From contig NZ_SAYT01000001.1 in NCBI RefSeq assembly GCF_004296575.1, forward strand, positions 62,001-126,000: DNA of 64,000 bases. Reading direction: 5' to 3'. The notes under the pieces are model-generated. The model had not been told where the DNA came from. It was given only the letters and a program-made list of their open reading frames with translations, and did not search any database. The DNA comes from Dyella amyloliquefaciens (GTDB lineage Bacteria; Pseudomonadota; Gammaproteobacteria; Xanthomonadales; Rhodanobacteraceae). Below, one piece after another: positions 17,359 through 35,199 of this stretch; position 1 is the stretch's first letter; each line of letters begins with the position of its first letter. The translations under genes and the position numbers were made by a program.

Positions 17359-17410
17359 ACCCTAATGGGCCTTCCAACGGGTTGTCAACAGTTTCTTTTG
17401 AAAATTTTGC
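17359..17410 (-). promoter_or_regulatory. Promoter of the ilv-leu operon
   Basis: TTGACA at 17388-17383, an 18-base spacer and TAGGGT at 17364-17359. An A/T-rich tract at 17410-17390 resembles an UP element. The 28-base block 17410-17383 matches the thr promoter block 35199-35172 at 23 positions. The predicted start point falls at or next to the leader ATG. Confidence 0.82.
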
Positions 17411-17494
17411 AATCGCGTGCCGCGACGCACATTCGGACGTCCAGATGGCCGAACGCCTCGCGCGTGCGTCGCACACGCGTGAGCGACATCGCGA

Positions 17495-18121
17495 TCAGCG
17501 TCGCGAGGCGAGTTCGCCAAGGTAGAGCGAAAGTGCCTGCTGCAGCTGGTTTTGCGCGGCTTTTCGCAGCGTCGCTGGTTGCTCGTTATCGAGCGCGACG
17601 GCGGCCTTCATCAGCTGCTGCACCACCATCGCGGCCGGACGCAGTTCGCCCGCGGGGATGCCCGGTGCGTGGATCGCAAGGATCTGGCTGAGGTAATCGC
17701 GCATGCGCTGGCGAATGGTGCGACCCAACATGGAGGGCAGCGAGCCGGCAACCTCCACCAGCGCGACAAAGGCCGGGTGCCGCTTGCGGTAGTCGGCGAA
17801 GGTGCGCAGCAGGCGTGCCGCAAGTTCGTCCGTCGTCCAGCCGGCGGTCTGCGCGACCAGCTGTTCCATGTGCTCGTTGAGCCCGTTCGCGTGGCTGGTG
17901 ATCAGCGCCTCGGCCAGCGATTCCTTGGTCGGGAAGAACTGGTAGAGCGAGCCGATGGAGGCGCCGGCCCGGGCGGCGATCTCGGTCATGGTGGTGGCGT
18001 CGAAGCCTTTCTCGACGAAGCAGTCCGAGGCGGCCGTCAGCAGGGCCGCCACGCGCTCGTGGCCGCGCCGGCGACTGGGCGTACGGCCAGCCTGGCTTGT
18101 GTTTTGTGAGGACATCCTCAT
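17495..18121 (-). CDS. TetR family transcriptional repressor
   Basis: The 208-aa product starts at 18121 (MRMSSQNTSQ). The N-terminal domain has the TetR helix-turn-helix: TMTEIAARAGASIGSLYQFF near residues 43-62, after the helix AALLTAASDCFVEKGF. The C-terminal ligand domain is family-generic. Two palindromes, TGTGAGGAYRTCCTCAYA, lie at 18105-18122 (over its own start codon) and 18131-18148, which indicates autorepression and probably control of the divergent YecD-like gene. The ligand is unknown. An ATG at 18115 is an alternative start. Confidence 0.93.
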   Translation of the reverse strand: MRMSSQNTSQAGRTPSRRRGHERVAALLTAASDCFVEKGFDATTMTEIAARAGASIGSLYQFFPTKESLAEALITSHANGLNEHMEQLVAQTAGWTTDELAARLLRTFADYRKRHPAFVALVEVAGSLPSMLGRTIRQRMRDYLSQILAIHAPGIPAGELRPAAMVVQQLMKAAVALDNEQPATLRKAAQNQLQQALSLYLGELASRR

Positions 18122-18122
18122 A
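18105..18122. promoter_or_regulatory. TetR operator copy 1
   Basis: TGTGAGGACATCCTCATA overlaps the start codon of the tetR gene. The core TGAGGA-CA-TCCTCA is an exact palindrome. Its centre is 26 bp from the second copy. Confidence 0.82.
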
Positions 18123-18130
18123 AACTCCAA

Positions 18131-18148
18131 TGTGAGGATGTCCTCACA
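18131..18148. promoter_or_regulatory. TetR operator copy 2
   Basis: TGTGAGGATGTCCTCACA has half-sites that are exact eight-base complements around a two-base centre. It is the better of the two copies and lies in the divergent promoter region, 95 bp before the YecD-like gene. Confidence 0.85.
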
Positions 18149-18242
18149 TAATAGACTTCCCGGCAGGCATCGTCGCGCGGCATGAACGCGGCCGATTCTA
18201 CGCTGATGCCAGCCCAATCCCGGCATATCCCTGGAGTTTACG

Positions 18243-18812
18243 ATGGAAAAGCTAGACCCCCGCACCACCGCGCTCGTCCTCATCGACCTGCAGAAAGGCA
18301 TCGCGCCGTTTGCCGGCGGCCCCCATACCAGTGCCGAGGTCAACGGCCGCGCCGGCCGTCTCGCCGCCCGTTTCCGTGAGCTGAAGGCCCCGGTGGTGCT
18401 GGTGCGCGTGGGCTGGTCCGCCGACGGCGGCGACATGCTGCACCCGTTGACCGACGAAGCCCCGCGCAAGATGACCCTGCCGGACAACTGGCTGGATTAC
18501 GCCGATGAGCTCAACGCGGCCGAGGGCGACATCCACATCACCAAGCGCCAGTGGGGTGCGTTCCATGGCACCGAGCTGGAGCTGCAGCTGCGCCGCCGCG
18601 GCATCACGCAGATCGTGCTCGGCGGCGTGTCCACCAACATCGGCGTGGAATCCACCGCGCGCAATGCGTTCGAACTGGGCTTCCACCAGGTGCTGGTGGA
18701 GGACGCCATGAGCTCGTCCAGCGCCGACCATCACCGTTTCGCGGTGGAAAACATCTTTCCCCGCCTGGGTCGCGTGCGTTCCACCGAGCAGGTTCTGGCC
18801 ATGCTGGCCTGA
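18243..18812 (+). CDS. Isochorismatase-fold protein, YecD-like, lacking the catalytic cysteine
   Basis: A 189-aa cysteine-hydrolase-fold protein, highly similar along its length to E. coli YecD. Shared motifs are VLIDLQKGIAPFAGGPHT, KRQWGAFHGTELELQLRRRG and GVSTNIGVESTARNAFELGF. Of the usual Asp-Lys-Cys triad, Asp15 and Lys101 are present, but the Cys position is Gly134, as in YecD. It therefore probably does not act by the usual thiol mechanism, and its substrate is unknown. GGAG precedes the ATG. It is divergent from, and likely repressed by, the TetR protein. Confidence 0.9.
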   Translation: MEKLDPRTTALVLIDLQKGIAPFAGGPHTSAEVNGRAGRLAARFRELKAPVVLVRVGWSADGGDMLHPLTDEAPRKMTLPDNWLDYADELNAAEGDIHITKRQWGAFHGTELELQLRRRGITQIVLGGVSTNIGVESTARNAFELGFHQVLVEDAMSSSSADHHRFAVENIFPRLGRVRSTEQVLAMLA

Positions 18813-18865
18813 AACCCCGGCGCTTGGTTACCCTCGCCCGACAGATCGGTGCGAGGGAGCGGGGC

Positions 18866-19648
18866 ATGCAGGTGAAACACGTTTTGGCAGCGGCCTGGCT
18901 GTCGTGCGCAATGGCTTCGTCGGCCTGGGCCGCGGAGGGCGGGTTTACCGCCCGCCATGTGCAGGTGAACGGTCACGACGTGGCCTACCAGGTGTTCGTG
19001 CCCAGCCATTGGTCGCCCGATCGCGAATGGCCGGTGGTGCTGTTCCTGCACGGCAGCGGTGAGCGCGGCAGCGACAACCAGGCCCAGCTCAAGCAGGGCC
19101 TGCCACCCTGGCTGAAGACGCATGGCGACGATTTCCCCGCCGTGGTGGTCGCCCCGCAGGCGCCCGACGACACCATCTGGGACGGTGCACAGGAACAGGC
19201 CGCGCTTGCGGCCATGGAAGACAGCATCAAGGCCTACCACGGCGATCGCTCCCGCCTGTATGTCACCGGCCTCTCGATGGGAGGCTACGGTGCATGGCAG
19301 TTCGCGGTGGATCATCCGGGGCTGTTCGCGGCCGCCGCGGTGATCTGCGGCGCCATCCGTGCGCCGGACGACATGCCCGAGCTGGTGGTGCATGGTCCGC
19401 CGACGGGCGGCAACCCGTACCAATGGGTGGCGGAGCGCATAAAGCCCATGCCGGTATGGATTTTCCATGGCGAAGTGGACGACCAGGTGTCGCCCAGCGA
19501 GGCGCGCAACATGTACGCCGCGCTGCTGAAATCCGGCGACGAAGTCCGCTACACCCAATTCCCCGGCGTGGGCCATGGCTCCTGGGTGCCCGCGTATGCG
19601 ACGGCGGATCTGTGGCCATGGATGCTGTCCCACCACACCGTCCGTTGA
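18866..19648 (+). CDS. Secreted alpha/beta-hydrolase (carboxylesterase/phospholipase type)
   Basis: A 260-aa exported hydrolase. Residues 1-23 are a Sec signal peptide (VLAAAWLSCAMASSAWA). The triad is Ser137 in GLSMGGYG, Asp205 in HGEVDDQV and His237 in GVGHGSW; the oxyanion region is FLHGSGERGSDN. This pattern is that of prolyl-oligopeptidase-like esterases (LpqC/PHB-depolymerase-like), often fused to or near polysaccharide-degrading systems. The substrate is unknown. It starts 53 bp after the YecD-like gene and may be co-transcribed. The frame upstream of 18866 is not coding. Confidence 0.87.
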   Translation: MQVKHVLAAAWLSCAMASSAWAAEGGFTARHVQVNGHDVAYQVFVPSHWSPDREWPVVLFLHGSGERGSDNQAQLKQGLPPWLKTHGDDFPAVVVAPQAPDDTIWDGAQEQAALAAMEDSIKAYHGDRSRLYVTGLSMGGYGAWQFAVDHPGLFAAAAVICGAIRAPDDMPELVVHGPPTGGNPYQWVAERIKPMPVWIFHGEVDDQVSPSEARNMYAALLKSGDEVRYTQFPGVGHGSWVPAYATADLWPWMLSHHTVR

Positions 19649-19848
19649 CGGAACCCGGTCGGAAAAAGCACGGCGCGGGCACAATCATGGCCCGCACCTA
19701 AACCGCTTTTGTTGCGCTGCGTTTACGCCCGTGCAGCTCTCGTCACGTCGATGTTATGCGGCCCTTACGCATCAAGGCTGCCCCGGTGCCTTCGTGATTT
19801 ATTGCGCTGCAGCGAAAGATGTCGTTGCAGCTTCTTTACAAGCTTTCA

Positions 19849-19862
19849 TGAAAACGTTTACG
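19849..19862. promoter_or_regulatory. LacI-type operator upstream of the regulator gene
   Basis: TGAAAACGTTTACG reads on the other strand CGTAAACGTTTTCA, which differs by one base from the operator at 29925-29938. It lies 43 bp before the regulator start, so autoregulation is likely. Confidence 0.78.
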
Positions 19863-19904
19863 TTGGCGCCGCCGTGACCGGGGGGTCACCTTCAAGTTGC
19901 CACC

Positions 19905-20921
19905 GTGACGACCAAGAAAGCGACCATCAAAGATGTAGCGCGTGAGGCCAAGGTATCGGTGGCTTCCGTGTCGCGCGCATTGAACGGGCAGGGCGGCGTC
20001 ACCGCCGAAACGCTCGAACGCATCCGCGTCGCGGCCAAGCAACTGCACTACGTGCCCGACAACGCGGCGCGCAGCCTCATTACCCGGCGCACGCACACCA
20101 TCGGCGCGTTGCTGCCGGACCTGTTCGGTGAATTCTTCTCGGAACTGATCCGGGGCATCGACCTGGCCGCGCGATCGCGCGGCCTGCACCTGCTGGTGTC
20201 GAGCTCGCACGACGGCGCCGACGAAGCCGCCGCGGCGCTGCGCGCCATGCACGGCCGCGTCGACGGCATGCTGATCCTGTCGCCGTGGGTGGACGAGGCT
20301 TTCCTCGATGCCAACCTCACGGACGGCCTGCCTACCGTGCTGATCAACAGTTCGGTACAGGCCAGCGGGCGCAGCGTGTTGAACATCGACAATCGCGGTG
20401 GCGCCTACGCGATGACCGAGCACCTGCTGCGCGTGGCGGGCCACAAGGACATCGCCTTCATCGCCGGCCCTGCGGGCAACTTCGACGCCGAACAGCGCGC
20501 CCTGGGTTACCGCGAAGCGATGAGGAAGCTGGCGCCGAAGGTGCCGCTCAACATCGTGGCGGGCAGCTTCACCGAGGAGTCCGGTTACCAGGCCGGTCGC
20601 GAGCTGCTCAAGCAGGAGCGTCGCCCCAGCGCCGTGTTCGCCGCCAACGACATGATGGCGGTGGGCTGCCTCTACGCCTTCAAGGAAGCCGGCCTGCAGG
20701 TGCCTGCGGACATCGCCCTGGCCGGCTTCGACGATATTCCCATTGCGCGCTACCTGACCCCTCCGTTGAGCACCGTGAGCGTGCACATCGCCGAGTTGGG
20801 ACGAAACGCACTGGAACGACTGGCTGCTCTGATGGATGGGCGGGAACAGTCCAATAGCACGGGCGCGCTTGGTTGCGCGATCGCCGTCCGTGGAACTTGC
20901 GGTGCAAACCGCGATGCATGA
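19905..20921 (+). CDS. LacI family regulator of the beta-glucan locus
   Basis: A 338-aa LacI/GalR repressor starting at a GTG (MTTKKATIKDVAREAKVS). The helix-turn-helix is residues 8-27 and the hinge helix lies near 50-60 (NAARSLITRRT). The periplasmic-binding-like sensor domain runs to about 330, with the family landmarks NDMMAVGCLYAFKEAG and IALAGFDDIPIARYLTPPLSTV. No good ribosome site precedes the GTG. Operators of the TGTAAACGTTTWCA type lie before this gene, inside the receptor gene and before the GH1 gene, defining a local regulon. The inducer is probably a beta-glucoside. Confidence 0.92.
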   Translation: MTTKKATIKDVAREAKVSVASVSRALNGQGGVTAETLERIRVAAKQLHYVPDNAARSLITRRTHTIGALLPDLFGEFFSELIRGIDLAARSRGLHLLVSSSHDGADEAAAALRAMHGRVDGMLILSPWVDEAFLDANLTDGLPTVLINSSVQASGRSVLNIDNRGGAYAMTEHLLRVAGHKDIAFIAGPAGNFDAEQRALGYREAMRKLAPKVPLNIVAGSFTEESGYQAGRELLKQERRPSAVFAANDMMAVGCLYAFKEAGLQVPADIALAGFDDIPIARYLTPPLSTVSVHIAELGRNALERLAALMDGREQSNSTGALGCAIAVRGTCGANRDA

Positions 20922-20984
20922 GTCACAAAAATACCTATCAACCTGCACGCCCATTCGATCCCTGATCGATCTTGGAGGGGAGTC

Positions 20985-23900
20985 ATGAAGTTGCCGCATC
21001 ACCTTAAGAAGACGCTGTTAGCCAGCCTGATCGCCAGCACCGTGGTCGCCACGGTTGCCGTTCCGACGGTGGCCTGGTCGCAGACGGCCAACGCCACGCT
21101 GCGTGGCAAGGGCCCGGCCAACACCGAGGTCACCGCCAAGAACGTCGCCTCCGGCGCCGTCCGTCGCACCACCACCGAAGCCGATGGCAGCTATGCGCTG
21201 GTTGGCCTGCAGCCCGGCACCTATCAGGTCGATGCCGGTCCTGGCACCGAGCGCACCGTGACGCTGACGGTGGCCTCCACCGCGTCGCTGGACCTGACCG
21301 CGGCCGCGCCTGCGACGACGGCCAACGCCGCCAATGCGCAGAACCTCGGTAGCGTTTCGGTTTCCGCCACCACGCTGCAGGAAGTGAAGACGCCCGAGGT
21401 CGGCGCCACCATTTCGCTGCGCCAGATCGACACGATCCCGCAGGTATCGCGCAACTTCCTCGAGTTTGCCGACACCGTTCCGGGCATGGTGTTCTCGGTC
21501 GATCCGTCGGGGCACACGTCCTTGCGTGGCGGTGCTATGAACGATAGTTCTGTAAACGTTTACATCGACGGTGTGGGCCAGAAGAGCTATGTGGTCGCCG
21601 GTGGTGTATCGGGGCAGAGCAACAGCCAGGGCAATCCGTTCCCGCAGCTGGCGATCGGCGAGTACAAGGTCATCACCTCCAACTACAAGGCGGAATTCGA
21701 CCAGCTCGCCAGCGCCGCCGTGACCGCACAGACCAAGTCGGGCACCAACGAATTCCACGGCGAGACGTACTACCGCTACACCGACGATTCCTTCCGTGCC
21801 ATGACGCCGGCCGAAAGCGCCGCCGGCACCAAGGCCTCGTCGCAGGAGAAGGAGTACGGCTTCGCCGTGGGTGGTCCGATCATCAAGGACCAGATGCACT
21901 TCTTCATGGCCTATGAGGCCAAGCGTTTCGACACGCCGGTAACGGTGGCGCCGAGCGCCGATGGCGCGGCAGGCGTGCCGTACCTGCCGTCCAGCGTGGC
22001 TGCGCAGATGGGGCCGGCGAACCTGCCGTTCCAGGAAGACCTGTACTTCGGCAAGATCGACTGGGAACCGACCGACCGCGACCGTTTCGAAGCCAGCGCG
22101 CAGATCCGCAACGAGACCCAGCTCGACGGCATCGGTGCCGACCAGCAGAACGCGGTGTCGGCCGCACGCAACGTGAAGAACGATGCCAAGCGCTATGTGG
22201 CTCGCTGGCAGCACAGCGGCCAGTCGTACTTCAACGAACTGATCTTCGCCTACGAGGACGCCAAGTACTCGCCGACCGCCGTGACCATCGGCAACGGCTA
22301 CGTGTACACCTGGCAGCGCCCGATCGATGATCCGACCATCATCGCCACCGGTGCCGCCAGCCCGCAGTCCACGCAGAACAAGAGCCAGAAGGGTCCCTCG
22401 ATCCAGGACGACTTCACCTTCAACGACCTGGAATGGCACGGCGACCATGTCGTGAAGATGGGCGTGAAGCTCAAGGCGGTAACGCTGGATGCATCCGATG
22501 CCTCGGACATCAATCCCCAGTACTACTACAACGTCACCGCCGACGGCACCGCCGCCACGCCCTACAAGGCCTACTTCACCAAGCCGGTGAACGGCCTGGG
22601 TCTGACCCCGTCGGTGTCGACCAAGAGCCGCCAGTTCGGCACGTACATCCAGGACGACTGGGCGGTCAACGATAAGCTGACGCTCAACCTGGGCGTGCGC
22701 TGGGACTACGAGCGCACGCCGTCGTACACCGACTTCGTGACGCCGGCCAACGTGGTGGCCGCGATCTACTCGCAGGACACCAACGCCGGTGCGCCTGCCG
22801 GCCAGACCTATGCCGAGACCCTGGCCAAGGGCGGCATCAACATCAACGACTACATCAGCAACGGCCATAACCGCAGCGCCTACAAGGGCGAGTGGCAGCC
22901 GCGCCTGGGCTTCTCGTACGACTGGTTCGGCGACGAACAGCACGTGATCCACGGCGGCGCGGGTCGCTCGTACGATCGCGACCTGTACGATTACCTGCAG
23001 CTGGAAACCACCAAGTCCGCGTTGCCGCAGTACACGATCTTCTTCCAGGATCCGGCCACCGGCACCTGCCATCGCGAGAGCACGCCCTGCTACAAGTGGG
23101 ATCCGAATCTACTCAGCGGCCTGCCGGCCCTGCAGTCGCTGCTCGGCGCGTCGAGCAACGCCGGTACCGAGGTGGACCTGCTCAACAACAACCTCAAGGC
23201 GCCGTATTCGGACCAGTTCAGCCTGGGCATGTCCAACCAGCTCGGCGAATGGCAGACCGACGCCACCGTGGTTCGCGCACTCAGCTACAACGGCTTCGCC
23301 TTCACGCTGGGCAACCGCTACCCGAACGGTGCGTTCTTCCAGCACAGCAACGACAACCAGCAGAACAGCCAGCCATGGGGCAATGGCATCCCGGGGTTCG
23401 GCGCGCTGATCCTGGGCGACAACGGCATCGCCACCCGCAGCACGCAGGTACTGCTGTCGGCCTCCAAGCCGTATGACAAGGCGTCGGGCTGGGGCGCGAC
23501 GTTTGCGTACACGTTCACCCATGCCAAGCAGAACCGCGACATCAACGAGCACTACTCGTTCGATTACGGCACGATCCAGGAATACCCGTTCATCACCTCG
23601 AACGCCGCCGCCAAGCATCGCTTCGTGGCGACCGGCAACATGGACGGCCCGTGGGGTACGGTGCTGTCGGCCAAGCTCACGCTGGCCACGCCGCTCCCGT
23701 ACAACGGCGCCGCCTGCTATCCGGGCGTGACGCTGCCCGACGGCAGCAGCTGCGTGCCGTCGGCCGCGGTGCCGCAGGGTTCGAAGTTCCTCGTTGGCGG
23801 CAAGATCTGGGGTTACCGCGACATCGACCTGCAGGCCACCAAGGATTTCGATCTGGGTCACGGCATGACGTTGTACGGCCGCTTCGATGTGCTCAACGTC

Positions 23901-24032
23901 TTCAACTGGCACAACTACTCCGACTACATCGCAACGTTCGTGCCGGGTAACACCATGGTGAGCTACAACCAGACCGGCAATATCACCTTCGTGCCACGCA
24001 CGGTGAAGCTCGAAGTGGGCCTGAAGTTCTAA
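20985..24032 (+). CDS. TonB-dependent receptor, Oar-like
   Basis: A 1015-aa outer-membrane receptor. The signal peptide is about residues 1-32 (cleavage after AWSQ-like). Residues about 35-105 are a carboxypeptidase-regulatory-like beta-sandwich (GSYALVGLQPGTYQVDAG), as in Oar-type receptors. The plug lies around 120-270 (NDSSVNVYIDGVG, AEFDQLASAAVTAQTKSGTN), followed by the barrel, which ends in VKLEVGLKF with the terminal Phe. GGAGGGG precedes the ATG. Its place after lacI and before a glucanase and ABC importer suggests oligosaccharide uptake across the outer membrane. A LacI operator lies within codons 189-193. Confidence 0.93.
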   Translation: MKLPHHLKKTLLASLIASTVVATVAVPTVAWSQTANATLRGKGPANTEVTAKNVASGAVRRTTTEADGSYALVGLQPGTYQVDAGPGTERTVTLTVASTASLDLTAAAPATTANAANAQNLGSVSVSATTLQEVKTPEVGATISLRQIDTIPQVSRNFLEFADTVPGMVFSVDPSGHTSLRGGAMNDSSVNVYIDGVGQKSYVVAGGVSGQSNSQGNPFPQLAIGEYKVITSNYKAEFDQLASAAVTAQTKSGTNEFHGETYYRYTDDSFRAMTPAESAAGTKASSQEKEYGFAVGGPIIKDQMHFFMAYEAKRFDTPVTVAPSADGAAGVPYLPSSVAAQMGPANLPFQEDLYFGKIDWEPTDRDRFEASAQIRNETQLDGIGADQQNAVSAARNVKNDAKRYVARWQHSGQSYFNELIFAYEDAKYSPTAVTIGNGYVYTWQRPIDDPTIIATGAASPQSTQNKSQKGPSIQDDFTFNDLEWHGDHVVKMGVKLKAVTLDASDASDINPQYYYNVTADGTAATPYKAYFTKPVNGLGLTPSVSTKSRQFGTYIQDDWAVNDKLTLNLGVRWDYERTPSYTDFVTPANVVAAIYSQDTNAGAPAGQTYAETLAKGGININDYISNGHNRSAYKGEWQPRLGFSYDWFGDEQHVIHGGAGRSYDRDLYDYLQLETTKSALPQYTIFFQDPATGTCHRESTPCYKWDPNLLSGLPALQSLLGASSNAGTEVDLLNNNLKAPYSDQFSLGMSNQLGEWQTDATVVRALSYNGFAFTLGNRYPNGAFFQHSNDNQQNSQPWGNGIPGFGALILGDNGIATRSTQVLLSASKPYDKASGWGATFAYTFTHAKQNRDINEHYSFDYGTIQEYPFITSNAAAKHRFVATGNMDGPWGTVLSAKLTLATPLPYNGAACYPGVTLPDGSSCVPSAAVPQGSKFLVGGKIWGYRDIDLQATKDFDLGHGMTLYGRFDVLNVFNWHNYSDYIATFVPGNTMVSYNQTGNITFVPRTVKLEVGLKF
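21551..21564. promoter_or_regulatory. Intragenic LacI-type operator in the receptor gene
   Basis: TGTAAACGTTTACA is a perfect 14-bp palindrome 566 bp into the receptor gene, covering codons for S-V-N-V-Y. The local codons AGT, TCT, GTA and GTT are AT-ending, unlike the GC-ending codons around them. It could serve as an auxiliary looping site or roadblock. Confidence 0.7.
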
Positions 24033-24148
24033 GGCTCCTTCGTCGCCGCCCGTTGCCTCCCCCCGGGTAACGGGCATCCGGCTTTCGCATCCCCTGGGCT
24101 GCGAGGCCGGCGTAGGGGAGCAGGTCAACCCTCCCAGGCCTGCTCCGG

Positions 24149-24187
24149 CCGGGCCGTCACCCACGTGTGTGATGGCCCGGTGTTTCC
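24149..24187 (+). terminator. Terminator-like hairpin after the receptor gene
   Basis: CCGGGCCGTCAC pairs with GTGATGGCCCGG (one G-T) around an eight-base loop, followed by TGTTTCC. The T-run is short, so termination may be partial and let some transcript pass into the glucanase gene. Confidence 0.55.
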
Positions 24188-24247
24188 ATGGAATGGCGGC
24201 TGTTTGTGGGCAGTCCGCCATTCCAGCTTTTTTTCCAAGGGTCCGCG

Positions 24248-27034: not shown

Positions 27035-27909
27035 ACGCACAGCGTGCCGCCTGGTGGTTCCTGGCGCCGGCGTTGCTGGTGCTGGGCGTGTTCTTCCTGC
27101 TGCCGGTGCTGGCGGCGCTGGGCCTGAGCCTTACCGATTACGACCTTTATGCGCTCGCCGATATCCGTCACCTGCGTTTCGTCGCGCTGGGCAACTACTG
27201 GGATCTGTTGCACCAGCCGAAATTCTGGTCAGCGCTTGGGCACACGTTCTACTTCGTCCTGGTGGGCGTGCCGCTGTCGATCATGGTCTCACTGGGGGCG
27301 GCGCTGCTGCTCCATTCACCGCTGGCGCGCTGCAAGCCGTTTTTCCGCACGGCGCTGTTTGCGCCGGTGGTGACCACGGTGGCAGCGGTGGCACTGGTGT
27401 GGCGCTATATCTTCAACACCAAGTACGGCATGGCGAACTACGTGCTGGGCGCGGTGGGCATCCATCCGGTCGACTGGCTGGGCGACCCGCACTGGGCGAT
27501 GCCTACCATCATCCTGTTCGCGGTGTGGAAGAACTTCGGCTACAACATGATCATCTTCCTCGCCGGCCTGCAGGCAATCCCCGGTGATCTCTACGAGGCG
27601 GCGCGCATCGATGGCGCTTCACCGCTGCAGCAGTTCCGTCATATCACGCTGCCGATGCTCACACCGACGTTGCTTATGGTGAGCATTCTTACCGTGTCGG
27701 GCTATTTCCAGCTGTTCGCCGAGCCTTACGTGATGACCGAGGGCGGACCGCTGCAGAGCACGACCAGCGTGCTGTACCTGATGTACAACGAAGGCTTCAG
27801 ATGGTGGAACTTCGGTACCGCTTCGGCGGTGGCCTTCCTCCTGTTCGTCATCATGTTTGCCTTCACCGCGCTGATGCTGCGCGTGGCGCGTCGTGGAGCG
27901 GCGGCATGA
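27031..27909 (+). CDS. Sugar ABC transporter permease, MalF/UgpA type
   Basis: A 292-aa inner-membrane permease with six predicted helices. The EAA loop that contacts the ATPase is DLYEAARIDGASPLQQFRHI near residue 190. Residues near the N-terminus (WWFLAPALLVLGVFFLLPVL) form helix 1. It forms the heterodimeric channel with the following gene, with which it overlaps by 4 bp. Confidence 0.94.
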   Translation: MNAQRAAWWFLAPALLVLGVFFLLPVLAALGLSLTDYDLYALADIRHLRFVALGNYWDLLHQPKFWSALGHTFYFVLVGVPLSIMVSLGAALLLHSPLARCKPFFRTALFAPVVTTVAAVALVWRYIFNTKYGMANYVLGAVGIHPVDWLGDPHWAMPTIILFAVWKNFGYNMIIFLAGLQAIPGDLYEAARIDGASPLQQFRHITLPMLTPTLLMVSILTVSGYFQLFAEPYVMTEGGPLQSTTSVLYLMYNEGFRWWNFGTASAVAFLLFVIMFAFTALMLRVARRGAAA

Positions 27910-28727
27910 ATCCACGCATGGCCAAGGCCATCATCAACGGCTTGCTGATTGGCGGCGCCGTGGTCGCGTTGTTTCCGCTGCTGTGGATGCTGTCGGTGTC
28001 GTTCATGCATCCCGGCGAAGCCAGTGCCCTGCCGCCACCCTTGTTGCCGGCGCATGCCACGTGGCGGAACTACGAGGAGCTTTTCACCCGCGCCGGCATG
28101 GGGCGCTACCTGCTGAACAGCCTGGCGATTTCGGGAGCGATCACCGTGCTCTCGCTCGCCTGCAACCTGATGGCAGGCTATGCCTTCGCCAAGCTGCGTT
28201 TCCACGGCCGCGAGCGGCTGTTTCAGGGTCTGCTCGGCATGCTGGTGATTCCGGCGCAGGTGGCGATGCTGCCGCTGTTCCTGATGCTCAAGTACATGGG
28301 CCTGGTGAACAGCTATGCGGCGGTGATCGTACCCGCGATGGCCACGGCGTTCGGCATCTTCCTGGTGCGCCAGTACGCACGCAGCATTCCGGATGAGCTG
28401 ATGGAAGCCGCTCGCATCGATGGCGCGGGCGAGTTGCGCATCTTCACGCAGATCGTGCTGCCGTTGCTGAAGCCCATCATGGTGACGCTGGCGATCTATA
28501 CGTTCCTCACCGCATGGAACGACTTCATGTGGCCGTTGATCGCGCTCACCGGCCAGGAGCACTACACGCTGCCGATCGGCCTCGCCTCGCTGGCGCGCGA
28601 GCACGCGCAGGACAGTGAGCTGATGATGGCCGGTTCAGTGGTGACGGTGATTCCGGTGCTGGCGCTGTTCCTCGCCATGCAGCGCTACTACATCGAAGGC
28701 CTGCTGCTGGGCAGCGTGAAGGGCTGA
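27906..28727 (+). CDS. Sugar ABC transporter permease, MalG/UgpE type
   Basis: A 273-aa inner-membrane permease whose EAA loop ELMEAARIDGAGELRIFTQI lies near residue 170. The start is the ATG at 27906, which overlaps the first permease stop; the longer open frame is out of phase with that gene and rejected. It ends six bases from the convergent ATPase gene. Confidence 0.94.
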   Translation: MNPRMAKAIINGLLIGGAVVALFPLLWMLSVSFMHPGEASALPPPLLPAHATWRNYEELFTRAGMGRYLLNSLAISGAITVLSLACNLMAGYAFAKLRFHGRERLFQGLLGMLVIPAQVAMLPLFLMLKYMGLVNSYAAVIVPAMATAFGIFLVRQYARSIPDELMEAARIDGAGELRIFTQIVLPLLKPIMVTLAIYTFLTAWNDFMWPLIALTGQEHYTLPIGLASLAREHAQDSELMMAGSVVTVIPVLALFLAMQRYYIEGLLLGSVKG

Positions 28728-28733
28728 CCTTCC

Positions 28734-29825
28734 TCAGACAATACGGGTGCCGCCGCTCGGTTCGAACATATGCAGACGATCGTGGGCCAACGCGAAATGC
28801 ATGACGGTGCCAGCCTCGGGCAGGGCGCCGGGTGCCACGCGGGACACCAACGATTGCGAGCCATGGCGCAGGTTGAGGAAGATCTCGTTGCCGACCGGCT
28901 CGGGGACTTCGAGTACGGCGCTAAGGGCCGCGTGATCGGCATCGGTAAGGCGCAGATCCTCGGGGCGTACGCCGAGCACGATCTCGCGATCGATCCACGG
29001 CAACAGCTCATGGCTTTGCGCGGCCAGTTCACCGAGCGGGACCGTGCCATCGAGCGTTTCCAGTGCCCAGCCACGCCCGTGGCGGAGCGTGCCGCGCAGC
29101 AGGTTCATCGCAGGCGAGCCGAGGAAGCCTGCCACGAACAGGTTGGCGGGCTTTTCGTACAGGCGCATCGGCGTGTCGATCTGCTGGATCTTGCCGCCAT
29201 TGAGCACCACGATGCGCTGGCCCAGCGTCATGGCCTCCACCTGGTCGTGCGTCACATAGATCATGGTGGTGCCGAGCCGTCGGTGCAGGCGCGCGATCTC
29301 CACGCGCATCGACAGGCGAAGCTTCGCGTCGAGGTTGGACAGCGGCTCGTCGAGCAGGAACACCTTGGGCTCGCGTACCAGTGCACGGCCCAGCGCCACG
29401 CGCTGGCGCTGTCCGCCGGAGAGCGCGGCGGGCAGGGCATCGAGGCGATGCTCCAGCTCCAGCAACTTCGCCGCGTCGCGAACGCGCGCGTCGATCTCGG
29501 CCTTGGGCTTGCCGCGCAGGCTCAAACCAAACGCCATGTTCTGCGCCACGGTCATGTGCGGGTACAGCGCGTAATTCTGGAACACCATGGCGATGTCGCG
29601 ATCCTTTGGCGACACCTCGTTGACCACGCGTCCGCCAATGCTAAGCGCACCCGAGGAGATCGATTCCAGGCCCGCGATCATGCGCAGCAGGGTGGTTTTT
29701 CCGCAGCCGGAAGGGCCCACCAGTACCAGCAGTTCGCCGTCGGCGATTTCGAAGGTCGCCTCGTCGACGCCGACATGTCCGTTGGGATAGACCTTGCGCA
29801 ACCGATCCAGAGTCACCGTTGCCAT
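28734..29825 (-). CDS. Sugar ABC transporter ATP-binding protein, MalK/UgpC/MsmX type
   Basis: A 363-aa ATPase with Walker A GPSGCGKTTLL (near residue 36), Q-loop FQNYALYPH, signature LSGGQRQRVALGRAL, Walker B VFLLDEPLSNLD and H-loop VTHDQ. The C-terminal about 120 residues are the TOBE/OB-type regulatory domain of the MalK class. It faces the permease genes tail to tail with a 6-bp gap, so it is not co-transcribed with them. It shares the divergent, LacI-operator-bearing region with the GH1 gene. It may energise more than one importer. The start is MATVTLDRL at 29825. Confidence 0.94.
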   Translation of the reverse strand: MATVTLDRLRKVYPNGHVGVDEATFEIADGELLVLVGPSGCGKTTLLRMIAGLESISSGALSIGGRVVNEVSPKDRDIAMVFQNYALYPHMTVAQNMAFGLSLRGKPKAEIDARVRDAAKLLELEHRLDALPAALSGGQRQRVALGRALVREPKVFLLDEPLSNLDAKLRLSMRVEIARLHRRLGTTMIYVTHDQVEAMTLGQRIVVLNGGKIQQIDTPMRLYEKPANLFVAGFLGSPAMNLLRGTLRHGRGWALETLDGTVPLGELAAQSHELLPWIDREIVLGVRPEDLRLTDADHAALSAVLEVPEPVGNEIFLNLRHGSQSLVSRVAPGALPEAGTVMHFALAHDRLHMFEPSGGTRIV

Positions 29826-29890
29826 CGACGTTGCGTCACTCCCCTGTCCGGGCCGTGGGCGGCCACTGCATGTATAGGCGAAAAGACCCG

Positions 29891-29919
29891 TGCACATTCG
29901 GCTCGGGCTCCGCTATTCT
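29891..29919 (+). promoter_or_regulatory. Putative promoter of the GH1 beta-glucosidase gene
   Basis: TGCACA at 29891-29896, a 17-base spacer and TATTCT at 29914-29919. The LacI-type operator begins five bases after the -10 box, a classical position for repression. Confidence 0.6.
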
Positions 29920-29924
29920 CACCA

Positions 29925-29938
29925 TGTAAACGTTTTCA
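29925..29938. promoter_or_regulatory. LacI-type operator before the GH1 gene
   Basis: TGTAAACGTTTTCA lies in the divergent region between the ATPase and GH1 genes. It matches the intragenic site at 21551 at 12 of 14 bases and the site before lacI at 13 of 14 (complement strand). Confidence 0.82.
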
Positions 29939-29974
29939 TCAAGCCGCAGTGCGGCATAAGGAATCGCCTCCACC

Positions 29975-31327
29975 ATGACGCACAGCTATCGCTTCCCGGC
30001 CGATTTCCATTGGGGCGCCGCTACCTCGGCTTATCAGATCGAGGGATCGCCCCTGGCCGATGGCGCAGGCCCCAGCATCTGGGAACGTTTCGCGCATACG
30101 CCGGGCATGATGGCCAACGGTGATACCGGCGACATCGCCTGCGATCACTATCGCCGCTACAAGGACGATGTGCAGCTGATGCGCGCGCTGGGCCTGCAGG
30201 GCTACCGTTTCAGCATCGCGTGGGCACGCGTGCTGCCGGAAGGCACCGGGCGCATCAACCAGAAGGGCCTGGACTTCTACTCGCGGCTGGTCGACGAGCT
30301 GCTCGAGAACGGCATCGAACCGAACGTCACGTTGTTCCATTGGGATCTGCCCGCGGCGCTGGACGACCGCGGCGGTTGGTTGAATCGCGACATCGCGAAC
30401 TGGTTCGCCGAATACGCCAGCGTGATGTACAAGGCGCTGGACGGCCGCGTGAAGCGCTGGTCCACGCTCAACGAGCCGTGGGTGGTGACCGATGGCGGCT
30501 ACCTGCATGGCGCGCTCGCGCCGGGCCATCGCAGCCTGTACGAAGCGCCGATCGCCGCGCACAACCTGATGCGCGCCAGTGGCGCTGGCATCCAGGCGTA
30601 TCGCGCCATCGGCAAGCACGAGGTCGGCGTGGTGTTCAACATCGAGCCGAAGTATCCGGCGTCCGACAGCCCGGAAGACCTCGCCGCGACGCGTCGCGCG
30701 CAGGCCTACATGAACGAGCAGTTCGCCGACCCGGCGCTGCTGGGCAGCTATCCGCCGGAGCTCAAGGAAGTGTTTGGTGCTGCATGGCCCGACTTCCCGG
30801 AAGATGACTTCAAGCTCACCCGCCAGCCCGTCGACTTCGTGGGCATCAACTACTACACGCGTGCGGTGGTGAAGAACGATCCCAACCACTATCCGCTGCG
30901 CGCGGCGCCGGTGCGCCAGCCCAACAAGACGTATACGGAAACCGGTTGGGAGGTGTACGAGCAGGGTCTCACCGACACGCTCACCTGGTTCAAGCAGCGC
31001 TACGGCGATATCCCGCTCTACATCACCGAGAACGGTTCGGCGTTCTACGATCCGCCGGTGGCCGAAGGCGACGTGCTCGACGATCCGCTGCGCACCAACT
31101 ACCTGCGCAAGCATCTCAAGGCGATCCACCGGGCGATCGAGGCTGGCGTGAACCTCAAGGGCTATTACGCCTGGTCGCTGATGGACAACCTGGAGTGGTC
31201 GCTTGGCTTCTCCAAGCGCTTCGGCCTGTACCACGTGGATTTCGCCACGCAGAAGCGCACGCCCAAGGCCACGGCGAAGTACTACGCCAAGGTCATCGAG
31301 ACGAACGGGGCGGTGCTGGACGACTGA
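29975..31327 (+). CDS. Beta-glucosidase, glycoside hydrolase family 1
   Basis: A 450-aa cytoplasmic retaining beta-glucosidase. The acid/base is Glu167 in STLNEP and the nucleophile is Glu352 in YITENG. The N-terminal FHWGAATSAYQIEG and the C-terminal YYAWSLMDNLEWSLGF (aglycone and glucose-binding Trp/Glu) are typical. There is no signal peptide, so it should cleave imported glucosides or gluco-oligosaccharides. It is regulated by the LacI operator 36 bp upstream. Confidence 0.96.
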   Translation: MTHSYRFPADFHWGAATSAYQIEGSPLADGAGPSIWERFAHTPGMMANGDTGDIACDHYRRYKDDVQLMRALGLQGYRFSIAWARVLPEGTGRINQKGLDFYSRLVDELLENGIEPNVTLFHWDLPAALDDRGGWLNRDIANWFAEYASVMYKALDGRVKRWSTLNEPWVVTDGGYLHGALAPGHRSLYEAPIAAHNLMRASGAGIQAYRAIGKHEVGVVFNIEPKYPASDSPEDLAATRRAQAYMNEQFADPALLGSYPPELKEVFGAAWPDFPEDDFKLTRQPVDFVGINYYTRAVVKNDPNHYPLRAAPVRQPNKTYTETGWEVYEQGLTDTLTWFKQRYGDIPLYITENGSAFYDPPVAEGDVLDDPLRTNYLRKHLKAIHRAIEAGVNLKGYYAWSLMDNLEWSLGFSKRFGLYHVDFATQKRTPKATAKYYAKVIETNGAVLDD

Positions 31328-31344
31328 TAGTCGTTCTGGCCCTT

Positions 31345-31425
31345 GTGGGAGCGCACCCTGTGCGCGACCGCAGAGGCACGGCGTCACCGCTCCGTCGGCT
31401 TGTCGCGCACAGGGTGCGCTCCCAC
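31345..31425. repeat. REP-type hairpin, CCCTGTGCG subtype
   Basis: Left arm GTGGGAGCGCACCCTG, right arm CAGGGTGCGCTCCCAC, with about 33 bases between them. It lies between the convergent 3' ends of the GH1 gene and thrC and may terminate both. Confidence 0.9.
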
Positions 31426-31444
31426 AGGAACAGGTGGTGGCGCC

Positions 31445-32776
31445 TCAGGTCGGCACCCCTTGCTCACGCTCCACCCGTCGCAGCAGCCACTCCTTCAACA
31501 CTGCATCGCTGGCTAACAATGGCTCGGCATACGCCGGCCGCCGCAACATCGCATCCAGTGCCGGCGGCACTTCCACGGTGCGCCCGATCAGGGGTTCCAC
31601 CACGCTGTCGAACTTCGCCGGATGCGCCGTCGCCACCACGGCCCACGGCAGGCCGGTAGTGCCCATGGCATCGAGCAGATGCACGGCGGTGGCCGTATGG
31701 GGGCAGAACAGTTCACCGTGGTCGCGCGCGTGCTGCACGATGGTGTCGCGGATGGTGTCGTCGTCCACGCTGGTGGCGTGCAGCTGCACGCGTAACTCGT
31801 AGTCGTGCGGGAAGGTCCAGCGCAGGCGTTCGAAGTTGCTCGGGGCGCCCACGTCCATCGCATTGGCCAGCGTGGGAATCGCGGGGCGTGGCGTGTAAGC
31901 GTCACCGTCGAAATAATCGGGCAGCGTCGCGTTGGCGTTGCATGCGAGATGGATTTCGCCCACCGGCAGGCCCATCTCGCGCACCCATACGCAGGCCAGC
32001 GCGTTGCCGAGGTTGCCGGTCGGCACGATGAAGTTGAGTGGCGTGCGATGGCGATGCCACCAGTCCAGCGAGGCCTGCGCGTAGTAGCTCATCTGCGGCA
32101 GGAGGCGGCCGAGGCTGATGCTGTTGGCAGAGGACATCGGCACCCGCGACTGCAGCCCGGCGTCGCCGAGTGCCGCCTTCACCATGCGCTGGCAGTCGTC
32201 GAAGCTGCCGGCGACGCGCAGCGCATGCACGTTGTCGCCGAAGCAGCCCAGCTGGTGGGCCTGTCGCGGCGATACGCGGCCATCGGGATACAGGATCACC
32301 ACGCGCACGCCGGGTTGGCGATGGAACGCGGCGGCCACGGCGGCACCGGTATCGCCGGAGGTTGCCACCAGAATGGTCAGTGGCGCCTGATCATGGCGGC
32401 GCAACCGCCGGAAGCACGCGGCAAGGAAGCGCGCGCCGATGTCCTTGAAGGCCGCGCTGGGTCCGTGGAAGAGCTCGAGCACCGAGGCGCCATCCGGATG
32501 CGCGAGCGGACGCAGCGGCACTGGGAAGTCAAAAGCCTCGCGGCAGATCGCCGGCAATTCGGCGGCCAAGGGCGTGGCGCGGAAGAACGGCGTGAGCAGC
32601 GTAACGGCCGTGTCCGCCAGCGAGCCGTGCGGATCGAAGGCCGCCACATCGAGCTGCGGCAGCACTTCGGGCACGTAGAGCCCGCCGTCAGGCGCGAGGC
32701 CCGCGGCGATCACTTCGTCGATGCGCGCCGCGTGGCGTGCACTGCGTGTACTTCGGTAATGCAACGGCTCGCTCAT
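31445..32776 (-). CDS. thrC: Threonine synthase
   Basis: PLP enzyme that forms threonine from O-phosphohomoserine. The 443-aa product has the PLP lysine in [13 protein letters not shown] near residue 110. The phosphate loop is [15 protein letters not shown] near 140, and [17 protein letters not shown] near 200 is typical of the E. coli-like class. It is last of hom-thrB-thrC; the start overlaps the thrB stop by 4 bp. Confidence 0.96.
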
Positions 32777-33747
32777 GCCGCTTCCTCGTCCAGCAGCGCG
32801 GCGGCTGGACCATTGATGGGTGAGACCAGCTGGTCGCTGGCAATGCCTTCCTCGGCGAAGGCGGCGGCCATCGCTTCGGCGGCGCGTTCGGCGTCCTCGC
32901 GGTTTTCGTACCAGCCAAACACGCTGGGACCACCGCCGGAAATGCTGGCGCCGAGTGCGTGATGATCCAGTGCGGCCTGCTTCACGCGCGCAAATCCTGG
33001 GACCAGCGGCGCGCGCCGTGGTTCCACCAGCACGTCCTTCAGGCCTTCGCGCACCAGGGTGGCGTCGCCGCGATGGCAGCCGGTCAGCACCAGGGCGAGG
33101 TTGGCGTGCTGCGCTACGACATCGCCCAGGGCGAAGCCGCCGGCGAGCGCCGCGCGCGATTCACGCGTCTCCAGCACCACGTGCGGATGCACCAGGGCGC
33201 AATGCCAGGCGTCGGGCACCGGCAGTCGCAGCAGGCGATCGCGGGTGGCAAGCACGAGACCTCCCAGCAACATCGGGCCCAGGTTGTCGCCGTGGCGGCT
33301 GCCACTGGCGACGACCTCGCCATCGAGCGCGAAGCCATACAGCGCTTCGCGCGGCAGCGGGCGTTCCAGCAGGGCATTGGCCGCCACAAGGGCCGCGACG
33401 CACGATGCGGCCGAACCACCCATGCCCGAGCCCAGGGCGATGCCCTTGTGCAGTTCCACTTCGAAGCCGTGGCGCAGCCCCAGCGCGCGGCGCAGGGAAA
33501 GCAGCGCCGCGCCGGCGGTATTGCGCGAGGCTTCCAGCGGCAGCTGGGGCACCAGGCCGTGTATCGCCGCGATGCGTACGGTGGGCTCATCGATACGCCG
33601 CACGACGGCACGGTCGCCCGCGCCGGCCACGCTATGGCCCAGGATGTCGAAGCCGACGCCGACGTTGCCGACGCTGGCATAAGCCATGGCTTGTGCGCTC
33701 AGGGCGCGTTGTTGTGCGGACATGGGATCAGCCAGTAGCGCGTTCAT
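32773..33747 (-). CDS. thrB: Homoserine kinase
   Basis: GHMP-family kinase that phosphorylates homoserine. The start is MNALLADPM at 33747 (324 aa) with GGAGG eight bases upstream. The ATP loop is [14 protein letters not shown] near residue 95, the N-terminal motif is [14 protein letters not shown] and the C-terminal GHMP motif is [14 protein letters not shown] near 280. Stop and start codons are coupled at both ends: TGATG with the dehydrogenase gene upstream and a 4-bp overlap with thrC. Confidence 0.96.
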
Positions 33748-34895
33748 CAGCGCACCTCCAGCGATTCTGCAATACGCAGGAGATCGGCGAAAACCCCCGC
33801 CGCCGTCACCTCCGGACCGGCACCGGGGCCCTGCACCAGCATCGGGTTCTCGCGATAGCGATGCGTGGTGAACTGCACGATGTTGTCGGTGAGGCGCGAA
33901 TGCGCGAACGGATGGGCGGCCGGCAGCATGGCCAGGCGCACGCTGGCGTGCCCCTTTGCGTCCAGGCTGGCCACGTGGCGCAGCACGCTGCCCTGGGTCT
34001 GCGCGCAGGCCACTTCGCGAGCCATGGCGCGGTCGAGCAGGTGCAGGTTCTCCAGTGCCTCTTCGGCGGACATGGCCGCCAGCTCCGGCGGCACCAGGCT
34101 TTGCACGTTCACGTCCTCCAGTGACAGGGGCCAGCCGGCTTCTCGCGCCAGGATCACCAGCTTGCGCGCCACGTCGAGGCCGGAGAGATCGTCGCGCGGG
34201 TCGGGCTCGGTATAGCCCAGCGCATGGGCTTCGCGGACCAACGCAGAGAACGGCCGGCTGCCATTGTGCCGGTGGCACAGCCACGCCAGGGTGCCCGAGA
34301 ACATGCCTTCGACGGCAAGCAGCTCGTCGCCGGTATCGAGCAGGTCGCGCAACGTCTGCACGACCGGAAGTCCAGCGCACACGGTGGCCTCATAGCGAAA
34401 GCGCGCGCCGCTGACGCAGGCTGCCCGGATCGCCTGCAGGCGCGGAAAGGAACCGCTGCCGGCCAGCTTGTTCGGCGTCACCACGTGCAGGCCCGAGGCC
34501 AGCCATTCGGCGTAGCGCGATGCCACGGCATCGCTGGCGCTGCAGTCGATCAGCAGGGCATGCCGGCCGTCCTCGCCACGCAGGTGCGCCGCAAACTCGT
34601 CGAGATTGCTGGGGCGCCAGGTTTGCGCGCCGCCGTAGCGGCCGTTGAGTTCGGGGTCGTCGGCATCGAGCCACATGCGACGGCTGGCCGCCACGCCGCA
34701 GAGCTTGAGTTCCAGGCCGGCCCGCGCGAGCCGCGGCTGCGCGGCGCGCAGCTGGTCGAGCAGGGCGCTGCCGACACGGCCGGGACCGACCAGGCCCACG
34801 GCGAGCACGCGCTGGCGTGCGGTGACCATCGGCAGCGCTGCGGCATGCGGCGGTAGCGACGGCTGTTCTAGCGATGACGATACGGCAAGATTCAC
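33747..34895 (-). CDS. Homoserine dehydrogenase (monofunctional)
   Basis: Reduces aspartate semialdehyde to homoserine. The start is a GTG at 34895 (382 aa) with GGAGG five bases upstream. The open frame continues to 35075, but that part is the leader region read in another phase. The Rossmann motif [18 protein letters not shown] is near residue 33. The catalytic region [20 protein letters not shown] is near 250, closely resembling the C-terminal half of E. coli ThrA. The aspartokinase half of ThrA is absent, so aspartate kinase must be supplied elsewhere. It is the first structural gene of the thr operon. Confidence 0.94.
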
Positions 34896-34948
34896 GGTGG
34901 CCTCCATTCGGGGCCCGTGCTCGCTGGCGGTATCGGAGTGGTGCATCC

Positions 34949-34975
34949 CGGCCCGCCTCATCGAGGGCGGGGCCG
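34949..34975 (-). terminator. Putative thr attenuator hairpin without U-run
   Basis: Minus-strand CGGCCCCGCC pairs with GGCGGGCCG (one bulged C) around an eight-base loop. It lies 15 bases after the leader-peptide stop, where an attenuator would be. No T-run follows (GGATGCACC), so termination here would need another factor. Confidence 0.45.
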
Positions 34976-34990
34976 TTTGCGTTAAGGAAC

Positions 34991-35140
34991 TTATTCGCGC
35001 ACGGAAACCCACCCCGACCTGGTGGTAATAGTGGTCGTGGTGGTGGTCGTGACGAGAGTGATGGCGCCTGCGCACAGCGGCATGCTGCCGGTCTTGACCG
35101 GGCAGATAGATATGCAGGCTGGCGAAATAAGCGGCGACAT
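34991..35140 (-). CDS. thrL: thr operon leader peptide, 49 aa
   Basis: ATG at 35140 and TAA at 34993-34991. Residues 27-40 read ITLVTTTTTTTITT, with ten Thr and two Ile, the amino acids that govern thr attenuation in enterobacteria. Only the Thr/Ile register resembles E. coli ThrL; the 26-residue N-terminal extension does not. The ATG is seven bases after the -10 box with no ribosome site, suggesting a leaderless mRNA. An internal in-frame ATG at residue 20 also lacks a ribosome site. Confidence 0.88.
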   Translation of the reverse strand: MSPLISPACISICPVKTGSMPLCAGAITLVTTTTTTTITTRSGWVSVRE

Positions 35141-35147
35141 GGGACCG

Positions 35148-35199
35148 ACCTTAGGCCGGATGTTGCAGTGCAGTCAACAGGTACGTTTGAAACTTTTGC
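35148..35199 (-). promoter_or_regulatory. Promoter of the thr operon
   Basis: TTGACT at 35177-35172, an 18-base spacer and TAAGGT at 35153-35148, with an upstream A/T-rich tract. Spacing, upstream tract and -10-to-ATG sequence are near-copies of the ilv-leu promoter at 17359-17410. Confidence 0.82.

Follow-up and report, generated by a model that had tools for sequence, protein, structure and literature searches.

The ilv-leu and thr operons of Dyella amyloliquefaciens have a common promoter layout that ends seven bases before the start codon of a leader peptide. Both lie on the 64,000-nucleotide stretch analyzed here (assembly GCF_004296575.1, contig NZ_SAYT01000001.1, positions 62,001 to 126,000 of the forward strand), called the window below. 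According to the window annotation, the ilv leader open reading frame (ORF) sits 5' of leuA in the ilv-leu operon, and the thr leader ORF sits 5' of the homoserine dehydrogenase gene (hom), which is followed by thrB and thrC. We consider it quite likely that promoters with an upstream (UP)-like element start both leaders at the ATG without any 5' untranslated region, and that the ilv leader is a classical attenuator and the thr leader a variant of it without U-tract.

In the proposed mechanism, each operon would be transcribed from a sigma-70-type promoter, in which an A/T-rich UP-like element precedes a strong -35 box (TTGAC) and, after an 18-bp spacer, a weak -10 box (TAnGGT), followed by a C-G discriminator and a C/A initiator. 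The polymerase would start at the A of the leader ATG, giving a leaderless mRNA that 70S ribosomes would start to translate at its 5' end. In ilv-leu, a ribosome stalled at Leu, Val or Ile codons would leave GGAGGTGCGGG free to hold the 5' arm of the terminator, and transcription would continue; a ribosome reaching the stop codon would cover GGAGGTGCGGG, and the U-tailed terminator would form. In the thr leader, the codon run and the predicted segments 1:2 and 2:3 follow the same layout as in ilv. Since its 2:3 hairpin has no U-tract and the hom ribosome site lies in a second hairpin, the thr leader would have one of two outputs: termination of a U-less or Rho type, or control over the translation of hom.

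Promoter blocks in the window and the genome

The promoter elements of the two operons are as follows.

17389..17410, minus strand: A/T-rich UP-like element of the ilv-leu promoter, 22 nt 5' of the -35 box, consensus kept in relatives
17383..17388, minus strand: -35 box TTGACA of the ilv-leu promoter
17359..17364, minus strand: -10 box TAGGGT of the ilv-leu promoter, behind an 18-nt spacer
35178..35199, minus strand: A/T-rich UP-like element of the thr promoter, kept in relatives
35172..35177, minus strand: -35 box TTGACT of the thr promoter
35154..35171, minus strand: thr spacer, 18 nt, with the thr-specific conserved GCASTGCARCA
35148..35153, minus strand: -10 box TAAGGT of the thr promoter

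An earlier note on this DNA had described 28-base blocks agreeing at 23 positions, unrelated 18-base spacers, a TARGGTCGGTnnCATG stretch identical at 13 of 16 positions and a leader ATG seven bases past the -10 box. Recomputation from the window returned the same figures. On the minus strand, GCAAAATTTTCAAAAGAAACTGTTGACA (17410-17383) matches GCAAAAGTTTCAAACGTACCTGTTGACT (35199-35172) at 23 of 28 positions and TAGGGTCGGTTGCATG matches TAAGGTCGGTCCCATG at 13 of 16; the distance from the TAnnnT box to the ATG is seven bases in both operons. The two spacers agree at 4 of 18 positions, about the chance level, with the refinement that the thr spacer is itself kept among relatives.

The likeness of the upstream blocks is not due to chance. 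A 27-mer consensus, built from both blocks themselves and searched with at most 3 mismatches, has two sites only in the window (shuffle mean 0.00) and the same two sites only in the 4,834,900-base genome, where the reversed control gave 0. The loose pattern TTGAC-N17-20-TANNNT-N5-8-ATG also matches exactly the two leaders in the genome; its reversed control equally returns 2, so that this count by itself is not significant. Nor does the 16-nt block reach significance in the window by itself (8 sites at up to 3 mismatches versus 6.24 expected); at 0 mismatches it picks out the two leader sites only.

Leader promoters among relatives

We collected 110 loci around Hom (L035-L144), consisting of 80 named-contig records and loci from 30 of 87 searched genomes, with some species represented twice. 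The closest named relative by Hom protein is Dyella jiangningensis (96%). Peptide content was the only criterion in a first search for leader ORFs, so that the promoter comparison would not be circular. This search gave thr-like leaders in 96 loci, all with a Thr/Ile codon run as in the window, and ilv-like leaders in 45, the ilv operon often lying outside the fetched stretch. The LVLVLLI run, itself the search criterion, is present in these 45 and in the window. A TTGAC/TAnnnT promoter ending 6-8 nt before the start precedes 94 of the 96 thr leaders and all 45 ilv leaders. The box-to-start distance is 7 nt in 76 thr and 38 ilv leaders, and the spacer is 18 nt in 93/94 and 39/45, respectively. 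The earlier note had named conservation of the blocks in relatives as a point on which its reading could fail; among these relatives, one consensus is kept in both operons.

The two thr leaders without such a promoter are L139, from a Pseudoxanthomonas, and L140, from a Thermomonas. Inspection by eye shows TTGACA in both, then 18 nt and a TCATCT or CATAGT box that lies 6 nt before a Thr-rich ORF starting with ATG. These two may thus be leaderless as well, though with a poorer box. In L138, from another Pseudoxanthomonas, a Thr-rich ORF is present, but no clear promoter of the TTGAC/TAnnnT kind precedes it.

A pattern free of peptide content, TTGAC-N17-19-TANNGTCR-N3-4-CATG, was then applied to 144 genomes from 26 genera of the family, the Rhodanobacteraceae, whose members live mostly in soil. 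It gave 127 matches in 86 genomes, with at least one match in 24 genera, compared to 6 for the reversed pattern. All 127 were read: 67 are ilv leaders and 50 thr leaders, and these 117 are spread over 81 genomes and 23 of the 26 genera, with both kinds present in 36 genomes. The remaining 10 are neither ilv nor thr by our filter, but one of them (L309, ending LITLALALLITDGCAG) resembles an ilv leader by eye. Among 150 genomes of the order, the pattern has 27 matches in 22 genomes (control 4); 22 of these matches fall in the home family, and 21 of the 22 are ilv or thr leaders. A version with a 6-nt discriminator matches in 13 of the 150 genomes (control 3). One of the five matches outside the home family (L188) and one match of the 6-nt version (L147) are ilv-like leaders from one other family of the order. 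By eye, both are followed by a G+C hairpin and an ilvD-like start, with T5 after the hairpin in L147 and only TTT in L188. The leaderless-looking ilv arrangement may therefore be wider than the home family.

The earlier note had further expected a motif search to reach his, trp or phe operons. Within the range of these tests this was not borne out, as there is no further site in the Dyella genome and 117 of the 127 family matches are ilv or thr leaders. Extension of the regulon to his was rejected: hisG was located in 30 of 31 genomes, and no His-run ORF of 12-69 residues starting with ATG was found within 1.5 kb on either side of it in these 30 loci (hisG as operon head was not checked everywhere). 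For trp and phe, the result comes from the motif scans only; no search anchored on trp or phe genes was made.

Two side observations concern individual matches. One of the 50 thr leaders (L221, genome G124) is frameshifted: its ORF loses frame after the first Thr codons while the promoter is intact, due to either a sequencing error or a real frameshift. Four off-target matches (L145, L146, L308, L347) stand before one short coiled-coil-like ORF (MEASPTREEL.../MNNPDTIRAEL...) with RTRVEAMIQRLK or RSRVEAMIARLK, which is leaderless-looking itself and occurs in different families.

Start site

For the start site we used the 40-nt class, in which an 18-nt spacer is combined with a 7-nt discriminator (34 ilv and 57 thr leaders). 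Position -1, just before the A of the ATG, is a C in 34/34 ilv and 98% of the 57 thr leaders; all of these leaders come from relatives and are hence not independent. A C also directly follows the -10 box in 34/34 ilv and 93% of thr leaders. Promoters commonly have a pyrimidine-purine initiator about 7 nt past the box. Together with the C at -1, this makes the A of the ATG the predicted first base. Because the promoter boxes stand at a fixed distance and the C at -1 is kept, both leaders are probably leaderless. This agrees with the first transcribed base proposed in the earlier note, at or next to the A of the ATG: the leader ORFs sit at the expected start, also across relatives, and box positions and the C/A initiator are compatible with transcription starting on the ATG or no more than a few nt away.

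In the same class, the third position is invariant in codons 2 and 4 of ilv (NCG, CGC) but not in codon 3, which hints at some constraint on the 5' end of the RNA. As a side observation, codons 2, 4, 5 and 6 of the ilv leader are nearly invariant in the third position among relatives, while codon 3 varies. The N-terminus MSQRNSH or MTQRNSH (window 17351-17331) is also widely kept in relatives, though not needed for attenuation.

The probable ilv-leu attenuator

The ilv leader region contains the following elements.

17214..17351, minus strand: ilv leader peptide ORF, 45 aa, Leu/Val/Ile-rich with the run LLLALVLVLLI; its first base is the predicted transcription start
17218..17228, minus strand: GGAGGTGCGGG inside the leader ORF, predicted antiterminator partner of the terminator 5' arm; pairs in 47/47 relatives in the truncated-transcript model
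17134..17165, minus strand: predicted intrinsic terminator, CCCCGCA...TGCGGGG then T6, in the window and relatives

In the window, the ORF reads MTQRNSHDRIAEPIGPPTIGGALRLRNNLLLALVLVLLITNGGAG. For this and the following section we used non-redundant sets of 47 ilv and 78 thr leaders, with the promoter pattern as the basis of selection. All 47 ilv leaders are followed by 5 or more consecutive T (6 or more in 46), and in the 26 ilv loci inspected for it this T-run stands behind a G+C hairpin. A simple terminator scan did not list the window terminator, the loop of which is longer than the scan permits. In a folding model of a ribosome stalled at the regulatory codons, with a transcript that has not passed the terminator loop, pairing between the 5' arm and the last part of the leader ORF has a mean probability of 0.88 (above 0.5 in 47/47). 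A ribosome at the stop codon covers this segment, so that zero pairing in that state is by construction. As read from sequence and modeled folds, the anatomy of the ilv leader is that of classical transcription attenuation.

The thr leader and the hom ribosome site

The corresponding elements of the thr leader are listed below.

34991..35140, minus strand: thr leader peptide ORF, 49 aa, Thr/Ile-rich with the run TTTTTTTITT; its first base is the predicted transcription start
35008..35015, minus strand: GGGGTGGG in the leader ORF, predicted to compete for the 5' arm of the next hairpin; 66/71 relatives in the truncated-transcript model
34949..34975, minus strand: conserved G+C hairpin CGGCCCCGCCCTC GAT GAGGCGGGCCG, without U-tract
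34899..34915, minus strand: GGCC...GGCC hairpin over the hom Shine-Dalgarno (SD) sequence GGAGG (34905-34901), with 4 pairs in the window and a longer helix in many relatives

The ORF reads MSPLISPACISICPVKTGSMPLCAGAITLVTTTTTTTITTRSGWVSVRE in the window. Among the 65 of 78 loci that could be aligned, the hairpin GGCCCCGCCCTCGAYGAGGCGGGCC is nearly invariant. The modeled 1:2 helix, in which GGGGTGGG holds the 5' arm, exceeds 0.5 before segment 3 is made in 66 of 71 loci; the other 7 of the 78 were unscored, as the arm pattern was not found. In one genus (g11), both sides of this helix look changed by eye (GGAGG with CCTCC), a case that was not counted.

A second helix, GGCCTC...GAGGYC, covers the hom ribosome site. 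In the aligned set, 3 of its 6 pairs are changed on both sides, in 4 cells; shuffles average 0.9 pairs, and 2 of 500 are as high. Its U-A pair is absent in 18/65, the window included. Compared to shuffled versions of the upstream 30 nt, the hom-site helix is longer (mean 5.2 versus 2.2 pairs, 78 loci); single-locus p is below 0.05 in 24 loci and at most 0.1 in 44, and 7 loci have no helix. The leuA ribosome site, which was used for comparison (44/47 scored), has helices averaging 6.1 pairs that are not above shuffles (median p 0.47 versus 0.09 for hom). By eye, a hairpin over a ribosome site also occurs before the likely thrA start in L138-L140, i.e., in two Pseudoxanthomonas and one Thermomonas.

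In fold models, the hom site is more accessible with a ribosome stalled mid-run than with one at the stop codon in 44 of 78 loci, but the means over the ribosome states differ little (0.21-0.24). A 3:4 switch that frees the hom ribosome site found no support: upon removal of segment 2 the means are 0.22 and 0.23, 5/71 loci open by more than 0.1 and none close that much. The Rfam model Thr_leader (RF00506) scores 17.6 bits at thr and 23.4 at ilv, below the gathering threshold of 55 bits, and no Rfam family reaches gathering within the window. In sequence and models, the anatomy of the thr leader is supported, and the switch is not.

Nature of the shared block

The block consensus before TTGAC, derived by hand from the position table, is AAARGTTKCAAATGMAYCTG for thr and AAWNNTTTCANARAAACTG-like for ilv. 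The two were compared in the 45 of the 80 named loci that show both leaders. Identity over the 22 nt 5' of the -35 box is 11.5/22 at offset 0 and at most 7.1 at other offsets from -8 to +8, so that the promoter layout proposed as common to the two operons is indeed found in one register over the 45 loci. The same proposal had called it a near-identical cassette, which is correct for this Dyella but not in general, as identity ranges from 4 to 17 of 22 positions among these loci. Mean identity within a genome (11.5) is similar to that between genomes (11.1). The two promoters thus hold one consensus and are not recent copies, and recent duplication or gene conversion is not supported as their origin.

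In position and composition the block fits a UP element, with A/T-rich sequence at -57 to -38. Compared by hand to the UP consensus of E. coli, the ilv block fits at 11 of 14 specified positions and the thr block at 8 of 14. Upstream of 16S rRNA, 8/8 Dyella loci have a TTGAC box behind a tract such as GCAAAAATTCTTCGC, and 4/8 a TTGTCA box behind a tract such as CAAAAATAAATTCAAAAATGGC (likeness judged by eye and not scored). Because similar tracts precede TTGAC-type boxes there, the A/T tract is more likely to be a UP element than an ilv/thr-specific site. Like the UP element of rRNA promoters, the block has its A/T-rich tracts in the proper register (-57 to -38), but it contains in addition a conserved C and CTG, which may leave room for a specific protein at the block. 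Also, the -10 box departs further from TATAAT than the boxes upstream of Dyella rRNA. In ilv it is TAnGGT in 36 of the 47 non-redundant leaders. This weak box resembles TAGGTT, likewise weak, in the his promoter of enterobacteria, a promoter activated by guanosine tetraphosphate (ppGpp); we regard this resemblance as a lead only. Among relatives, the thr spacer is conserved more than the ilv spacer, with GCASTGCARCA at about -31 to -21 in the thr promoter only, which suggests an operator-like element.

Alternative explanations

The block might instead be the operator of a shared regulator that ties threonine to branched-chain synthesis. Non-A/T letters are kept in both operons, namely the C at about -49 (79% of thr, 60% of ilv) and the CTG at -40 to -38, many ilv copies contain the inverted repeat TTTCnnnnGAAA, and the genome has two copies of the block only. 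However, the register and make-up of the block fit a UP element, tracts that look like it precede Dyella rRNA, and several Rhodanobacter ilv copies (e.g., L083, L086, L098) stay A/T-rich yet lose the motif, which makes an operator rather unlikely in our view. That the ilv/thr likeness is coincidence or the result of a recent duplication is hardly credible: the Dyella blocks are unusually alike, at 23/28, but the shuffle mean is 0.00, the two consensus sequences agree in one register over 45 loci, and identities within and between genomes are alike, which would not be the case for a recent copy. We also think it very improbable that transcription starts further upstream, with TAAGG or TAGGG near -12 serving as a weak SD sequence and the leaders not being leaderless. 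TAAGG does match the complement of the 16S anti-SD, and GG is frequent in the box although the sigma-70 consensus does not require it. On the other hand, the ilv box is TACGGT or TACGTT, which is not SD-like, in 25/47 leaders, ORFs found by content have -35 and -10 boxes at fixed spacing just before them, a C stands at -1 in the 40-nt class, and the scan shows no better promoter upstream.

More room must be given, though still as the lesser possibility, to a thr attenuator that acts on hom translation, with stalling of ribosomes in the leader opening the ribosome-site hairpin. The lack of a U-tract in thr leaders, the covariation of the hom-site helix (3/6 pairs, 2/500 shuffles as high), its excess over shuffles and its recurrence before the likely thrA start all point that way. 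Against it, changes on both sides are confined to 4 cells, 18/65 lack the U-A pair, p is below 0.05 in 24/78 loci only and 7/78 have no helix, the leuA site has longer helices (though not above shuffles), and the fold models show no change in access. A broader proposal, which we regard as speculative and doubtful, is that this promoter class (UP-like element, TTGAC, 18 bp, TAnGGTCG, CATG) is reserved for the leaderless sensor peptides of just two operons and couples start-site choice, 70S initiation and possibly a ppGpp response, with thr being read out at hom translation and not at an intrinsic terminator.

Our explanation by UP-like promoters and leaderless attenuators also has to accommodate a number of contrary observations. 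A standard scan found no sigma-70 promoter in either region, the TAnGGT box is a poor sigma-70 box, and with a transcription start further upstream, TAAGG in the thr box might pass for a weak ribosome site. In thr, a U-tract is lacking (longest T-run at most 3 in 65/78, never above 5), no covariation is seen in the 1:2 helix among the 65 aligned loci, and the hom ribosome site hardly opens on starvation in the fold models (means 0.21-0.24 in five ribosome states). The strict pattern has no match in 58 of the 144 family genomes, and outside the home family it is not in excess in the order sample of 150 genomes (5 matches versus 4 controls). Finally, as the non-redundant sets were picked by the promoter pattern, their TTGAC/TAnnnT letters are not independent evidence; those of the content-found leaders are.

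Genes and operon context

The first genes downstream of the two leaders are as follows.

15505..17100, minus strand: leuA, first gene after the ilv attenuator; ATG 17100 picked for its GGAG (the ORF list has GTG 17118)
33747..34895, minus strand: hom (homoserine dehydrogenase), first gene after the thr leader; GTG start 34895 picked by SD sequence and alignment, thrB and thrC next

Downstream of leuA follow an aminotransferase class IV gene, leuC, an aconitase-C/leuD-like gene, leuB, ilvD, ilvC and a thiamine pyrophosphate (TPP)-enzyme gene. The thr and ilv-leu leaders are 17.8 kb apart in the window (17351-35140) and about 17.7-19.1 kb apart in G064, G102, G113 and G124. In relatives with both in one fetched locus the distance is often just 4-6 kb (e.g., L066, L087, L127), and an insertion between the leaders in one Dyella subgroup is likely. 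Inverted copies of GTAGGAGCGCACCCAGTGCGCG 5' of the thr promoter (window 35236-35321) are likely a repetitive intergenic element.

Comparison with known systems

The ilvL and thrL leaders of E. coli are preceded by a 5' untranslated region that contains a ribosome site, and the terminator of thr has a U-tract. The leaders described here resemble them in their Thr/Ile and Leu/Val/Ile codon runs and competing helices. Unlike them, they are predicted to have no 5' untranslated region, and the thr leader has no U-tract.

The earlier note knew of no description of a shared promoter cassette with leaderless leader peptides. Leaderless attenuator peptides as such have been published for Streptomyces lividans (PMC8079986) and Sinorhizobium meliloti (PMC7298713). 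In S. lividans, leuL, trpL, ilvL, thrL and metL are leaderless attenuator leader peptides (PMC8079986). Like the predicted ilv and thr leaders here, they contain regulatory codons, and some have a U-rich terminator while others do not. They differ in belonging to Actinobacteria and in that thrL precedes thrS, and a shared promoter block is not mentioned in the parts of that report available to us (PMC8079986). In S. meliloti, the trpL RNA (rnTrpL) starts at the ATG of the leader ORF and is a ribosome-dependent attenuator (PMC7298713), similar to the start predicted here; that system concerns trp only, and its released RNA and peptide act in trans. In the LEU element of Actinobacteria, similar to thr here, a single RNA fold involves the leader codons together with the first gene's ribosome site, but that element concerns leucine, and its codon run itself pairs with the ribosome site in a pseudoknot (PMC1262725). 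An ilv leader attenuator is also present in Caulobacter (PMC4117421). A search of open-licence literature by title and start of abstract found no report of leaderless ilv or thr leaders in Xanthomonadales.

What is new here is probably the combination, in one gammaproteobacterial family, of leaderless attenuators of two operons with one conserved promoter layout and a U-less thr leader. With its conserved helices, this thr leader questions the assumption that all such leaders end in an intrinsic terminator. The layout would also allow a clean test of 70S-dependent attenuation at a 5' AUG versus SD-led attenuation under stress. Together, these observations would add the ilv and thr operons of a gammaproteobacterial family to the leaderless attenuators published for Streptomyces and for a single trp leader in Sinorhizobium; in this family, the strict layout precedes ilv or thr leaders in 23 of 26 sampled genera.

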